64,000 nucleotides of DNA, taken from NCBI RefSeq assembly GCF_000092205.1, contig NC_014216.1, forward strand, positions 1,927,742 to 1,991,741, written 5' to 3'. The DNA comes from Desulfurivibrio alkaliphilus AHT 2. GTDB taxonomy: Bacteria > Desulfobacterota > Desulfobulbia > Desulfobulbales > Desulfurivibrionaceae. Shown one piece after another: positions 2,954 through 59,798 of this stretch (its first letter is position 1; every line of letters starts with the position of its first letter). Position numbers and translations under genes: made by a program. The notes below the pieces were generated by a model. The model ran no database searches. It was not told the DNA's origin and saw nothing but the letters and a program-made list of their open reading frames with translations.

Positions 2954-3063
2954 GTAAGCGATCACGGGGTGCCCCAGATTGCGGCAAGCAGACCGGCGCA
3001 GCGTACACCGGGTACTCAAGGCGGGCTGCTCGCCGCAAGGTGGGGTGCCCCGTGATCGCTTAC
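2954..3063 (+). repeat. Palindromic 3'-end element PE1
   Basis: This is a 110-base imperfect palindrome. The outer arms GTAAGCGATCACGGGG and CCCCGTGATCGCTTAC pair perfectly; inner arms are TTGCGGC and GCCGCAA; the apex is GTAC-N5-GTAC. Read on the minus strand it begins exactly at the end of the small membrane protein gene to its right. The TAA stop of that gene (3060-3062) is part of the element terminus. It lies between convergent genes. Confidence 0.92.
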
Positions 3064-6652: not shown

Positions 6653-6758
6653 AACGGGCGGCAGCACCGCACCTTGCGGCGATCAGGACGACTTGCGTAC
6701 CTGGGGTACGCGGCGCCGTCCTGCTTGCCGCAATCTGCGGCAATGCCACCCGTTTTAC
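6649..6758 (-). repeat. Palindromic 3'-end element PE2
   Basis: A 110-base copy in minus orientation relative to PE1, so in sense orientation for the rightward transglycosylase gene whose TAA stop it supplies. Outer termini are GTAAAACGGG and CCCGTTTTAC, inner TTGCGGCGATC and GCTTGCCGCAA, apex GTAC-N5-GTAC. It is the left member of a back-to-back pair with PE3. Confidence 0.92.
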
Positions 6759-8268: not shown

Positions 8269-8377
8269 GTAAACGATCACGGGGTGCCGCAGGTTGCGGC
8301 AAGCGGGACAGCGAAGCGTACCTCAGTACGTGAGCTGTCCCGATCGCCGCAAGATGCGGTGCCCCGTGATCGTTTAC
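8269..8377 (+). repeat. Palindromic 3'-end element PE4, inside an operon
   Basis: A 109-base copy with perfect outer arms GTAAACGATCACGGGG and CCCCGTGATCGTTTAC, a middle stem GGGACAGC/GCTGTCCC and apex GTAC-N4-GTAC. It lies between two co-directional genes. The TAA stop of the permease gene (8374-8376) is inside it, and the adaptor gene begins 28 bases beyond its other end. Confidence 0.93.
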
Positions 8378-12975: not shown

Positions 12976-13085
12976 GTAAGCGGTCACGGGGTGCCCCAGA
13001 TTGCGGCAAGCAGACCGGCGCAGCGTACACCGGGTACTCAAGCCGGGCTGATCGCCGCAAGGTGGGGTGCCCCGTGATCGCTTAC
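12976..13085 (+). repeat. Palindromic 3'-end element PE5
   Basis: A 110-base copy nearly identical to PE1: outer arms GTAAGCGGTCACGGGG and CCCCGTGATCGCTTAC with one G-T pair, inner TTGCGGC and GCCGCAA, apex GTAC-N5-GTAC. Its right end is nine bases past the stop of the leftward citrate synthase gene, and it lies upstream of the aminotransferase gene. Confidence 0.92.
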
Positions 13086-17503: not shown

Positions 17504-17545
17504 CAACCGCCAACCATGACCAAGAAGCTGCTGAATCAAAAGGCC

Positions 17546-17653
17546 GTAAACGTTCAGCAGTGCCGCAGGTTCGGGCAAGCAGCCAGGCGCAGCGTACCCC
17601 CTGTACGTAAGCCTGGCTGATCGCCCGAACCTGCGGCACTGCTGAACGTTTAC
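17546..17653 (+). repeat. Palindromic 3'-end element PE7
   Basis: A 108-base copy with perfect outer arms GTAAACGTTCAGCAG and CTGCTGAACGTTTAC and longer inner complementarity (GCCGCAGGTTCGGGC against GCCCGAACCTGCGGC, fully paired here). It is downstream of tRNA-Leu, beyond the tRNA terminator, in sense orientation for that RNA gene, and upstream of hflK. Confidence 0.93.
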
Positions 17654-17738
17654 GGAGGCTTGGCTTGACTTTTTGCCGGAAGCTCATTAGAAAGCGCTCA
17701 CCCGGCACCGGCCCGGCAAACCCTGCCGCAGGGGCCAC

Positions 17739-19003: not shown

Positions 19004-19111
19004 GTAATCGTCCAGCAGCACCGCATCTTGCGGCGATCAGTCCGGCTTGCGTACCTGGGGTACGCGGCGCCGAACTGCTTGCCGCAACCTGCGGTGCTGC
19101 TGAACGATTAC
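19004..19111 (-). repeat. Palindromic 3'-end element PE8
   Basis: A 108-base copy in sense orientation for ribF and starting at the base after its TAG stop. Outer arms GTAATCGTCCAGCAGCACC and GGTGCTGCTGAACGATTAC differ at one position; inner TTGCGGCGATC and GCTTGCCGCAA; apex GTAC-N5-GTAC. It lies between convergent ribF and argJ. Confidence 0.92.
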
Positions 19112-30972: not shown

Positions 30973-31082
30973 GTAAGCGGTTACAGAGTGCCCCGAATTG
31001 CGGCAAGCAGACCGGCGCCGCGTACCCCAGGTACGCAAGCCGGTCTGATCGCCGCAAGGCGGGGTGCTATGTAACCGCTTAC
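30973..31082 (+). repeat. Palindromic 3'-end element PE10
   Basis: A 110-base copy with outer arms GTAAGCGGTTACAGAG and TATGTAACCGCTTAC, pairing for 12 bases and then drifting, inner TTGCGGC and GCCGCAA, apex GTAC-N5-GTAC. The minus-strand TAA stop of cobB (31079-31081) is inside its right terminus. Confidence 0.92.
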
Positions 31083-34970: not shown

Positions 34971-34988
34971 TCGGGCTTGGCGCTTTAC
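34966..34988. repeat. Mini-palindrome, possible collapsed 3'-end element
   Basis: The 23 bases start GTAATCG and end CGCTTTAC, the terminal signatures of the palindromic family, with only CCAAGCC-type sequence between. Both convergent genes use the terminal TAA as stop codon (34968-34970 and, on the minus strand, 34985-34987). Confidence 0.45.
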
Positions 34989-35724
34989 GCTTCCCGGGCC
35001 TGGTGGCCACCGAACCATCTGACCATGATGATGCTGATCTCGTAGAGAACGATCAAGGGGCCGACCATCAGCAGTTGGTTGACCGCGTCGGCGGTGGGGG
35101 TGAGCATGGCGGCGATGATGAAGGCCAGCAGGATGGCATAACGGCGATGGCGGGCCAGGAAGGGCGCATCCACCACCCCCAGCCGGGCCAGCATAACCAT
35201 CAGCACCGGCAATTCGAAGATCAGCCCGAAGGCGATGAGCAGGCGCAGCGAAAGCCCGAAATACTCGCTGACCCCGGGCATGGTGGCCAGGTATTCGTGG
35301 GAATAACCCACCAGGAAACGGAAAGCGGGTGGAAAAATAACAAAATAGGCAAAGGCCGCGCCGGCCAGGAAGCAGAGCACGGAAATGACGGTAAAAGGGA
35401 GCACCACCCGCTTTTCATGGTGGTAAAGCCCCGGCGCGACAAAGCTCCAGAGCTGCCAGAAAATCACCGGCGAGGCCAGCAGCAGGGCGGCGGTAAAGGC
35501 TACCTTCAGATAAAAAAAAACCCTTCCTGGTAAGAGGTGAAGATCAGGGTGCTTTCCGGCGGCAGAACGGCAAACAGCGGCGCGAAGAACCAGTGCCCGA
35601 TGGGCTCGGCAAAACTGTAGGTGGCCACGAAGCAGACTCCCACCGCGATCATGGAACGCACCAGGGCCCGACGCAAATCGGTCAGGTGCTCGGTGAGGGT
35701 CTGCGACTGAAAGGTCTCTTCCAT
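34985..35724 (-). CDS. tatC: TatC, reading frame broken at a run of nine T
   Basis: Core membrane subunit of twin-arginine translocation, but split. The first frame (35724 to 35506) gives MEETFQSQTLTEHLTDLRR, a first helix, and FTSYQEGFFF, then Ile and a stop. The remaining TatC from YLKVAFTAALLLASPVIFW to the end (34985) is in the -1 frame. The switch falls at a tract of nine T (minus strand; A run at 35512-35520). One extra T, or a -1 slip, would restore the canonical junction EGFFFYLKVAF. Everything else is intact, including six hydrophobic helices and FVAPGLYHHEKR. So this is a very recent mutation, a sequencing error, or a slippage-decoded gene. A second, intact tatC is at 57081. It has no tatA/B next to it. 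Confidence 0.85.
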
Positions 35725-35797
35725 AACCCGGCCATATTAACGCCACCGACAACCATGGTCAAGCACTTACCCGCAACTTTGCAGCACACTTCTATCA

Positions 35798-36717: not shown

Positions 36718-36760
36718 CTAACCGTTCACCATGGTTACTAACCTACCGGTATAACGGACC
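36718..36760 (+). repeat. Companion module B, copy beside PE11
   Basis: 43 bases containing ACTAACCTACCGGTATAACGG and abutting PE11; the terminus reads CTAACCGTTCACCA where the copy at 15137 has GTAACCGTTCACCA. Confidence 0.72.
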
Positions 36761-36868
36761 GTAAGCGAAAAGCCGTGCCGCAGGTTCGGGCAAGCGGCCA
36801 AGCGCAGCGTACCCCCTGTACGTAAGCCTGGCTGATCGCCCGAAGATGCGGTGCGGCTGTTCGCTTAC
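36761..36868 (+). repeat. Palindromic 3'-end element PE11
   Basis: A 108-base copy close to PE6: outer arms GTAAGCGAAAAGCCG and CGGCTGTTCGCTTAC (one mismatch), inner GGTTCGGGC and GCCCGAA, apex GTAC-N5-GTAC. Its right terminus contains the minus-strand TAA stop (36865-36867) of the cyclo-ligase gene. Confidence 0.92.
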
Positions 36869-37566
36869 CGATCGGCCTGTTCCCTTATTTGCCACAGGGG
36901 GGTGATGCGCCGAATACGCACCGGCGGCAACTGCTCCCAATGTATTGACCAGCGGCCAGGCTTGTCGGCCGGCCGGCAGGGGGTGAGCCCGGTCTCGTCC
37001 AGGCGCTGATCGGCCTGGACATCCCAGGGCTCAATGGGCAGGTTTTGTGCAACGTCGCCGGCCGCCGCCACCACCGTCACGTTGGCCGCCAAGGCGCCGG
37101 TGGCGGCCAGAATGGCAGCCGCCAGGTCGAAAAACCCTTTACCGTCGCCCAGCATCGTTCCCCGGCGGTCCACCGCCAGGGCTTCGGCCACCAGCAGGCT
37201 TACCTGCAGGTCGGCCAGCCGGGCGGTGGCGAGTTTCCGGCCATGCTGCAACATCCCTTTGGGGCTTACCGCCTGGGCCAGACGGCCGAAATTGATGGTA
37301 TACGGGGAGAGGAGATAAAAACCGTCGTGGAGCGAAGGGGCCGGCATCAGCAAAGCTTTGCCGTCCAGCAACAGATTGATCCGGAGCTGCTTGAGCAGGG
37401 GAGACGGCGAGACAAAAACACACTGGGCCCGCCGGTAGGGCTCAAAGGAACGCAAGTGCTGGGCCAGCCGACCGCTGAGAACCGCTGGTAAAGCCTGATA
37501 GCGGGAACGCAGCGCCTTTTTGGCCGCCCCCGGGGTCGTTAAGCTAGAGTCCGGATTTGGCGGCAT
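36865..37566 (-). CDS. 5-formyltetrahydrofolate cyclo-ligase family protein
   Basis: Predicted to convert 5-formyl-THF to 5,10-methenyl-THF with ATP. Family features are an early basic helix (AAKKALRSRYQAL), the QCVFVSPSP strand, and the ATP-site GTMLGDGKGFFDL, where typical members have a G-x-G-K-G-[YF]-[YF]-D signature. A C-terminal extension (residues about 195-233) is unusual. The start at 37566 overlaps the 3' end of the carboxypeptidase gene by 23 bases; a later start is possible. The stop is provided by PE11. Confidence 0.82.
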   Translation of the reverse strand: MPPNPDSSLTTPGAAKKALRSRYQALPAVLSGRLAQHLRSFEPYRRAQCVFVSPSPLLKQLRINLLLDGKALLMPAPSLHDGFYLLSPYTINFGRLAQAVSPKGMLQHGRKLATARLADLQVSLLVAEALAVDRRGTMLGDGKGFFDLAAAILAATGALAANVTVVAAAGDVAQNLPIEPWDVQADQRLDETGLTPCRPADKPGRWSIHWEQLPPVRIRRITPLWQIREQADR

Positions 37567-56812: not shown

Positions 56813-56917
56813 GTGATCGCGGGGCACCCCACCTTGCGGCGATCAGCCCGGCTTGCGTACCGATGTACGCGGCGCCGGGCTGCTTGCCGCAATCTGGGGC
56901 ACCCCGCGACCGCTTAC
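56809..56917 (-). repeat. Palindromic 3'-end element PE14
   Basis: A 109-base copy in sense orientation for the radical SAM gene, whose TAA (56810-56812) it contains. Outer arms GTAAGTGATCGCGGGG and CCCCGCGACCGCTTAC pair with two G-T/A-C differences, inner TTGCGGCGATC and GCTTGCCGCAA, apex GTAC-N4-GTAC. Confidence 0.92.
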
Positions 56918-57047: not shown

Positions 57048-57090
57048 GTAACCGCTCACCAGGGGTACTAACTTACCGTTTTAACGGGCT
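57048..57090 (+). repeat. Companion module B, solitary copy
   Basis: About 43 bases beginning GTAACCGCTCACCA and containing ACTAACTTACCGTTTTAACG, with no palindrome next to it. The minus-strand TAA stop of the tatC gene (57081-57083) lies within it. Confidence 0.72.
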
Positions 57091-57809
57091 CCGCCGGGGG
57101 GGGCAAAGATTTTGCCGATTAAAATCCCCGCTTCATACAGCAGGCAAAGCGGCACGGCCAGCATGAAGGCGGCCACCGGGTCGCCGGCCACCAGCAGCAG
57201 GGAGATAATGATCATCCCGATATAGGACCAGGTCCGGTAGCGCACGAAATAATCAGCGGACACCAATTCCAGCCGGGTGGCCATGACCATCAGGAAGGGC
57301 AGCTCAAAAGCCAGGCCGAAGGCCAGGGAACTGCGCACCACAAAATTAAGATAGGGCGCCAACTTGAGGTGGGGATGAATTTGCTCGGTGGCAAACCAGA
57401 GCAGAAAAACCAGCAACTGCGGCAACACCACAAAGTAGGCAAAGAGTGCCCCGCCGGCAAAGAGCAGAAAACCCCACAACGCCACCTTGATCGCCACCAC
57501 CTTTTCCCGGCGGTGCAACCCCGGGGCGACAAACATCCACACCTGATAAACCGCCACCGGCAGAGCCAGAATCACCCCCAGCAACAGGGACAACTTCAGG
57601 TAACTGAGCAGGGCCTCGGGAAGAGCGGTGTAGACCAGCCGGCTGAGTTCGGGGTCGATCCGCACCAAAGGGCCGGAAAGATGGCGAACCAGATCTTCGA
57701 CAAACCAGTAAACCACGGCACTGGCCAGCACGATCGCCCCGATAACGGTGAGCAGACGCCGCCGCAACTCCCGCAGGTGGGGAGTAAAGTGAGAGGCCAG
57801 GGCGCTCAT
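57081..57809 (-). CDS. tatC: TatC, twin-arginine translocase core subunit (intact copy)
   Basis: Six-helix membrane protein that recognises twin-arginine signal peptides. The conserved N-terminal HLRELRRRLL, FVAPGLHRREK in the second loop, FAYFVVLPQLLVFLLWFA, and FGLAFELPFLMVM are all present. Length 242 is normal. It overlaps tatB by four bases (ATGA). A second tatC with a broken frame is at 34985, about 35% identical by eye over its central helices. The stop codon lies in companion module B. Confidence 0.94.
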   Translation of the reverse strand: MSALASHFTPHLRELRRRLLTVIGAIVLASAVVYWFVEDLVRHLSGPLVRIDPELSRLVYTALPEALLSYLKLSLLLGVILALPVAVYQVWMFVAPGLHRREKVVAIKVALWGFLLFAGGALFAYFVVLPQLLVFLLWFATEQIHPHLKLAPYLNFVVRSSLAFGLAFELPFLMVMATRLELVSADYFVRYRTWSYIGMIIISLLLVAGDPVAAFMLAVPLCLLYEAGILIGKIFAPPGGAR

Positions 57810-58180
57810 GAACCCGCAGAGGCTTTCGGCGGCGGGTCACCTTCGTCGCCGGCCACCGACTCATCATCGGCAGCAGCGCCGGACTCGGCATCGGCGGCCT
57901 CGCCCTGCTCCACCCCCGCTTCCCACCCGGTATAGGCCTTTTCCGCCTGTTGCTGTTCATCGGTGGTCAAGCGGGGCAAGGGCTTTTCCAGATCCCGGCT
58001 CCAGCTGTCGACGTCGCCGACCTCCTGTTCCACGTTCTCCTGCAATTCCTGGACGGCCTTTTTCAACTCCAGCACGCCGCGGGCGATGGATTTGGCCATT
58101 TCAGGCAATTTGTCGGGGCCCACCACAATCAGGGCCACGGCCAAAATTATCAGCAGTTCAGGCAAACCAATGCCAAACAT
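57806..58180 (-). CDS. tatB: TatB-like twin-arginine translocase subunit
   Basis: One N-terminal transmembrane helix (about residues 4-21, FGIGLPELLIILAVALIVV), the hinge VGPDKLPEM, an amphipathic helix (AKSIARGVLELKKAVQELQ), then an acidic, Ala/Glu/Asp-rich tail. The VGP-x-x-LP hinge and length (124) favour TatB over TatA. No separate TatA is in the window. It is co-transcribed with tatC. Confidence 0.88.
   Translation of the reverse strand: MFGIGLPELLIILAVALIVVGPDKLPEMAKSIARGVLELKKAVQELQENVEQEVGDVDSWSRDLEKPLPRLTTDEQQQAEKAYTGWEAGVEQGEAADAESGAAADDESVAGDEGDPPPKASAGS

Positions 58181-58360: not shown

Positions 58361-59798
<1,438 letters not shown>

Follow-up and report, generated by a model that had tools for sequence, protein, structure and literature searches.

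Within the 64,000-nucleotide stretch of the Desulfurivibrio alkaliphilus genome analysed here (the window), a gene of the TatC family, termed tatC2, is divided over two frames of the minus strand, which reads CAG GAA GGG TTTTTTTTT ATC TGA at the point of division. The upstream frame (35509–35724, minus strand) starts with an ATG at 35724, encodes 72 amino acids (MEET...YQEGFFFI) when read without a shift, and is closed by a UGA stop codon (35506–35508), the second codon past a run of nine T residues (35512–35520, U9 in the mRNA). This run, the proposed slip site, contains the heptamer U_UUU_UUU and adjoins a GGG glycine codon on its 5′ side (35521–35523). The remainder of the protein is encoded in the −1 frame (34985–35509, minus strand), which reads LKVAF...HQAREA from 35509 over 174 amino acids to a stop codon at 34985, and of which the leucine codon CTG (35507–35509) creates the overlapping stop of the unshifted frame. 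The two translations matched positions 1–58 and 60–208, respectively, of the Pfam TatC profile (PF00902, profile length 208), with scores of 40 and 181.2 bits against a curated cut-off of 25.1, which places both in the TatC family; adjoining parts of one known protein are encoded in two frames, as in recoded genes. An earlier note, made from the letters of the sequence, had described nine T after a glycine codon followed by isoleucine and a stop, had regarded both halves as otherwise undamaged, and had stated that one added T or a −1 slip restores the junction EGFFFYLKVAF. All of this was borne out, as the −1 relation of the frames was confirmed and relatives with the gene in frame encode EGFFFYLK.

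A mechanical list of open reading frames gave a 255 aa frame for this region (34985–35752, minus strand), starting with TTG in the −1 frame, the first part of which is not TatC sequence; this suggests that gene callers misread TatC2, and that its automatic annotation may carry the same false N-terminus. The window contains a single T9 run where 0.43 would be expected, and a bare T9 in 64 kb is therefore unremarkable; it is the conservation of the run, not its presence, that is far beyond chance.

The genome of D. alkaliphilus consists of one contig of 3,097,763 bases and contains three tatC genes, comprising the split gene, an intact gene in the window (tatC1, 242 aa, 57081–57809, minus strand) and one elsewhere in the chromosome; the second tatC mentioned in the earlier note is thus present, but the total is three rather than two. 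Profile matching also identified a TatA/B-type gene directly before tatC1 (57806–58180, minus strand). No tatA/B neighbour of the split tatC2 was found in the window, where its flanking genes are from other families, with a divergent CxxCxxCC-domain gene located upstream; a relative of the latter was present at 23 of the 60 tatC2 loci searched. A search with PF00902 gave, among the matches listed, four TatC matches in at least 41 of 58 genomes, which fits two halves and two whole paralogues. Eight of the genomes have, among the matches listed, the split tatC2 and a whole tatC on a shared contig and strand, separated by ~20–28 kb, and the wider neighbourhood may thus be conserved. Together the halves of tatC2 span the complete profile (1–208) like other TatC proteins (PF00902, TIGR00945), but a split at T9 is absent from family members elsewhere, namely the D. 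alkaliphilus paralogues and 69 more distant loci.

Among the matches listed in the same search, at least 50 of the 58 genomes (D. alkaliphilus included) had a TatC match without part or all of the N-terminal half. This truncated match began at profile position 44–55 in 47 genomes, and at positions 35, 27 and 19 in G029, G032 and G051, respectively, with the matches in the latter two extended through stop codons. The earlier note had proposed to check the length of the run in related genomes, and a first set of 50 loci (our own and those of 49 of 57 relatives) all contained exactly T9, the same −1 relation, and TGA or TAA as second codon past the run. Across the full collection of 199 tatC2 loci, which are not all distinct, since a few repeat named contigs already counted, and which are nearly all from the class of D. 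alkaliphilus, 190 were shifted at the same codon and nine were in frame; T9 was present at the same site and in the same frame in 187, with the other three shifted loci having T10. This total combines 148 loci (gene found in 148 of 151; 136 with T9, three with T10 and nine in frame) with 51 loci found at 54 further places containing the motif of the site, all 51 combining T9 with the −1 relation and an immediate stop; loci without a TatC match were dropped, three from a set of 80 and three, from G225, G240 and G149, from the 54. A distinct set of 133 shifted and eight in-frame loci, from which duplicates and the 51 later loci were left out, served for the codon, folding and tree analyses. At one locus (L060) the run is displaced by one base and is still nine T long.

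The DNA motif of the site was present in 213 of 257 genomes of the class, compared with 16 of 257 for a reversed control (hand count of the table). These 257 genomes represent one order, judged from named relatives to be Desulfobulbales, and 15 families, 13 of which have motif matches. A tatC2 gene was confirmed in 178 of the 213 motif-bearing genomes, while the sole motif match was not in tatC in three (G149, G150 and G225) and 32 are unconfirmed. In a sample of 395 genomes from the phylum, the motif was detected in 16/16 members of the class and 8/379 genomes outside it (table count), and no TatC match was found in the 3-kb loci of the four outside hits inspected. Among named contigs, the 11 nearest (62–69% identity, with the next at 51%) include ten that are split with T9, such as that of Desulfopila sp. 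IMCC35006, and one that is in frame, from the cable bacterium Candidatus Electronema aureum. That well over a hundred relatives share the break at this exact place indicates that it is kept by selection, and we interpret the split as an order-wide programmed frameshift, with the full protein probably made by a slip in transcription or translation.

Within the 44 genomes of the class lacking the motif, a full TatC2-type gene was found in ten, and not found in 34, many of which are incomplete. Two of these ten genes are still shifted (L166 with T9 but without a stop at once, and L171 with T10), and the other eight are in frame and all interrupt the run with a C (TTC TTC TTC, TTC TTT TTC, T8 then C, and others), the longest remaining T run being 2–8. 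Relatives with an in-frame, non-homopolymer sequence at this site were named in the earlier note as a case that would speak against programmed slippage; they do occur, at nine of 199 loci (eight distinct), but in scattered lineages that broke the run with a C, a pattern in favour of selection on the run elsewhere. The three T10 runs follow GG and stay out of frame, and there is hence no locus that is switched on by tract length. The T10 form of the motif was present in 5/257 genomes of the class, of which two are among the three T10 tatC2 loci and three are without a TatC match. At the more distant named loci (69), TatC-like sequence continues upstream in the frame of the C-terminal part (established by alignment of the N-terminal part for 30 and by visual reading for 39), and no T run at the site is longer than 7.

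Five of the genomes without a full TatC2 match are 90–99% complete (G038, G048, G039, G065 and G241) and may lack the gene, and a sixth (G076, 97% complete) contained only a TatC2 fragment. The eight distinct in-frame relatives and the near-complete genomes without the gene indicate that tatC2 is dispensable in some lineages. Among the matches listed, G038 (99%) and G048 (93%), both of family f13, show just one TatC, in open frames of 284 and 300 aa, and lack a TatC2; the Tat set may be reduced in these genomes. In a quick tree of 150 proteins (133 shifted, eight in frame and nine outgroup rows), constructed with the junction left out and with 34 of 147 inner branches starred, the frame state changes at least six times, consistent with a single gain at the root of the order followed by about five losses; the deep branches are poorly resolved, and hence the in-frame lineage G034 could instead retain the old state.

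Selection at the site acts on the DNA, beyond what the protein demands, and the slip site is conserved in the manner of recoded genes. Parsimony changes between TTT and TTC numbered 0, 0 and 0 at the three codons of the run, versus 20–40 at 15 other conserved Phe columns, and one codon of the run in L060 is TTA. The Leu codon after the run showed a single change between purine- and pyrimidine-ending forms on the same tree, versus 18–32 at 18 other Leu columns. It is nearly always CTA or CTG, so that the unshifted frame meets UGA or UAA right past the run (at 131 of the 133 distinct shifted loci and at all 51 further loci). CTA alone was used in 69/133 loci, compared with 88/4648 (1.9%) of the Leu codons elsewhere in the same genes, and in 38 of the 51 further loci; this excess suggests a preference for UAA, as the stronger stop, at this position. 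On the other side of the run, the preceding Gly codon is GGG in 99 of the 113 loci of the distinct set with Gly, versus 21% elsewhere and 13% where a T follows, with ten parsimony changes versus 43–58 at eight other Gly columns. Where this residue is Ala, the codon is GCC in 19 of 20 loci, with GCC representing 68% of Ala codons before T elsewhere. When 166 columns were ranked by codon bias, the Leu after the run came first (KL 2.15) and the Gly before it third (1.25), separated by a Ser far downstream (1.39); other high columns were Ser −5 (0.77), Ser +12 (0.91) and the Leu two codons on (0.76), and the high Ser columns are taken as a consequence of serine having two separate codon boxes. The use of GGG was linked in counts to CTC or CTT two codons past the Leu; a test on independent pairs, of which there were too few, was not significant, and descent could explain this link.

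Both halves of tatC2 are under purifying selection. Pairwise omega was 0.017–0.091 for the C-terminal half in 14/14 pairs, and for the N-terminal half it was ≤0.105 in ten of the 11 defined pairs and 0.313 in one, with three pairs undefined. There are 48 invariant columns among 19 C-terminal halves, none of the 148 loci has a stop within the 60 codons before the run, and in 145 of the 148 the C-terminal part stays open over 160 codons or more, with two others cut by contig ends. One locus (L201, in G069) has a stop 73 codons into the C-terminal half with the T9 site intact, and may represent a damaged copy or an assembly fault. No ATG, GTG or TTG was detected in the frame of the C-terminal half from −20 to +1 codons around the junction in the 133 loci, and over the first 40 codons of that half a start codon was shared at any one position by at most 57/133 loci.

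That full-length TatC2 is made is strongly supported by the conservation of the site, and the protein predicted from the slip has the same length as in relatives that have lost the run. The earlier note had proposed that functional TatC is produced from a fraction of transcripts; the conservation strongly supports a slip at the run, but does not settle whether polymerase or ribosome is responsible. We consider the slip likely to be that of RNA polymerase and not of the ribosome, and propose, with reasonable confidence on these comparative data, an order-wide programmed frameshift in which unslipped U9 messages would yield the 72 aa N-terminal fragment, with translation stopping at once after the run, and messages in which RNA polymerase has added one U (U10) would yield the complete TatC, joined through EGFFFYLK. 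Runs of nine A or T, the length present at the tatC2 junction, suffice for slippage by bacterial RNA polymerase, as described in PMC5009743 and PMC1088944. At 121 of 133 loci the run is preceded by GG or CC, mostly GG, and by our own, hypothetical, reasoning such a repeated base would keep a hybrid pair when the RNA realigns one base back; the CC cases add little, as GCC already makes up 68% of Ala codons before T. Together with the precedent for runs of nine, the lack of a conserved ribosomal stimulator and the displaced T9 of L060, the GG/CC before the run leads us to favour slippage by the polymerase. An early stop in the third frame, which would be entered by 8-U or 11-U messages, is absent (median 30 codons), and this counts against it.

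The main alternative is a −1 ribosomal frameshift, in which the tRNA-Phe in the P- and A-sites would re-pair one base back on U_UUU_UUU, resulting in the same EGFFFYLK from an unchanged mRNA. The shifted loci carry the heptamer in frame and have a −1 relation of the two frames, and with Phe-Phe-Phe-Tyr fixed the heptamer would itself demand nine T; as both mechanisms require this length, it is not decisive. In most loci a purine-rich, Shine-Dalgarno-like AGGAGG or AGGAAGGG is located just upstream, but its Glu codon is without codon selection (KL 0.05) and several loci lack the stretch, and it was set aside as a stimulator; its spacing to the run would also be short for a stimulator of −1 frameshifting. 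Downstream windows at 45 of the 133 loci had no excess structure over codon-permuted controls (mean z −0.19 for +9 to +69 and −0.07 for +9 to +100; +0.82 for the D. alkaliphilus site itself), and RNAalifold, applied in sliding windows to 132 loci, did not find a consensus stem close to the run; neither a downstream stem nor an upstream Shine-Dalgarno-like element is conserved as stimulator. Folding around the run was slightly above controls (z −0.78 for −20 to +40 and −0.42 for −60 to 0, standard error 0.16–0.17, 45 loci), which counts for the ribosomal model, and a recurrent hairpin encloses the U9 (−11 to +27, mean pair probability about 0.3–0.4, with GGG opposite CUC or CUU). This hairpin is hard to explain under either mechanism, since its downstream arm would be unmade during a slip of the polymerase and both arms would be melted under the ribosome. 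The GGG/GG preference before the run has no part in ribosomal slippage, which we regard as rather unlikely, though a serious contender.

The other explanations have far lower probability. The sequencing error or fresh, tolerated mutation offered as alternatives in the earlier note could be accommodated by the two other tatC genes in the genome and by its sequencing with 454 and Illumina technology (given in PMC5016858), but both are excluded by the identical split in relatives, with the same site, length and frame in 187/199 loci, selected neighbouring synonymous sites and two conserved halves, and have negligible probability. A pseudogene decaying throughout the order, to which the 34 of 44 motif-less genomes without a full TatC2 match (many of them incomplete) and the early stop of L201 might point, is barely credible given omega values far below 1, the invariant columns and frames that are open in nearly all 148 loci, and is ruled out by the selection seen at codon level. 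A homopolymer in a membrane-protein gene is also reminiscent of phase variation, in which replication slippage would switch between T9 (off) and T10 (on); on/off variation in tract length was not found among the genomes, as none of the 199 loci is in frame by tract length and the nine in-frame genes have interrupted runs, making a phase-variable locus highly improbable. Conservation of both halves could also reflect a two-piece TatC with the second half produced by re-initiation. The absence of start codons near the junction in the 133 loci makes re-initiation unlikely, it would have no need for a fixed T9, and the in-frame relatives encode one chain; this explanation was rejected as very improbable, and the addition of one U by RNA polymerase is retained as the favoured reading.

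The kind of event proposed here is already known from other bacteria. In Shigella flexneri mxiE, a nucleotide added by the polymerase at a U run joins two overlapping ORFs, as described in PMC1088944 and PMC5009743; tatC2 resembles this gene in having two overlapping ORFs at a U run, where the slipped message would give the longer protein, but it encodes a membrane translocon subunit rather than a type III secretion regulator, is order-wide, and has a fixed stop after the run and a preferred GGG before it. The dnaX gene of Thermus thermophilus likewise contains a run of nine identical bases in a chromosomal gene, at which slippage affects about half of the product (PMC1088944, PMC5009743), but there the run is A9 in the sense strand and slippage leads to a shorter product, whereas at the T9 of tatC2 it would give a longer one. 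The tssM genes of Citrobacter rodentium and Yersinia pseudotuberculosis are described in PMC4256274 as encoding a homopolymer-interrupted membrane protein of a secretion apparatus that is rescued by polymerase slippage, with both forms and their ratio reported there as needed in C. rodentium. The run of tssM consists of 11 A, only the C-terminal domain is left off, and two species are named, unlike tatC2, where a T9 is located early in the gene throughout an order. Compared with −1 ribosomal sites of the form X_XXZ_ZZN (PMC4066793), tatC2 shares the in-frame U_UUU_UUU and the −1 shift, but is without a conserved stimulator.

Recoding of tatC was not found in the literature searched, although it may be listed in a supplementary table. 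In the portions of text available for PMC3711429, PMC5009743, PMC4066793 and two Desulfurivibrio papers, the terms tatC and translocase had no match except for one mention of SecA, and translocase had none in those of PMC1088944. The case appears to be unreported, and stands out by its taxonomic depth, by affecting a gene for protein export and by the clear rules that its sequence follows. According to the sections of reviews and scans consulted, productive slippage by bacterial polymerase involves few cellular genes, with insertion sequences forming the largest group; an order-fixed example in a conserved gene of the translocon, apparently lost several times independently, represents a natural experiment on how such a site is built and lost. 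The mechanism is directly testable with the deposited D. alkaliphilus RNA-seq data (SRS1466493 and SRS1466494, as given in PMC5516251).

With regard to function, a fixed rate of slippage would keep TatC2 at a fraction of its transcription, and holding it there may be the purpose of the slip. A more far-reaching version is possible, though we regard it as doubtful: polymerase slippage, at a site that includes the GG before the run and the UAA or UGA after it, could be the order's sole route to one Tat core, and could throttle Tat capacity in either a standing or a condition-dependent manner.

The window also contains a dispersed repeat with a CTTGCGGCGATC...CTTGCGTACC core, of which eight matches were found with up to 3 mismatches (3011–3039, 6673–6701, 8325–8353, 13033–13061, 19027–19055, 31030–31058, 56833–56861 and 59715–59743) and none was expected by chance. 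This repeat is perhaps REP-like, and other repeat families, for example at 17505–17656 and 36720–36871, may belong to it.
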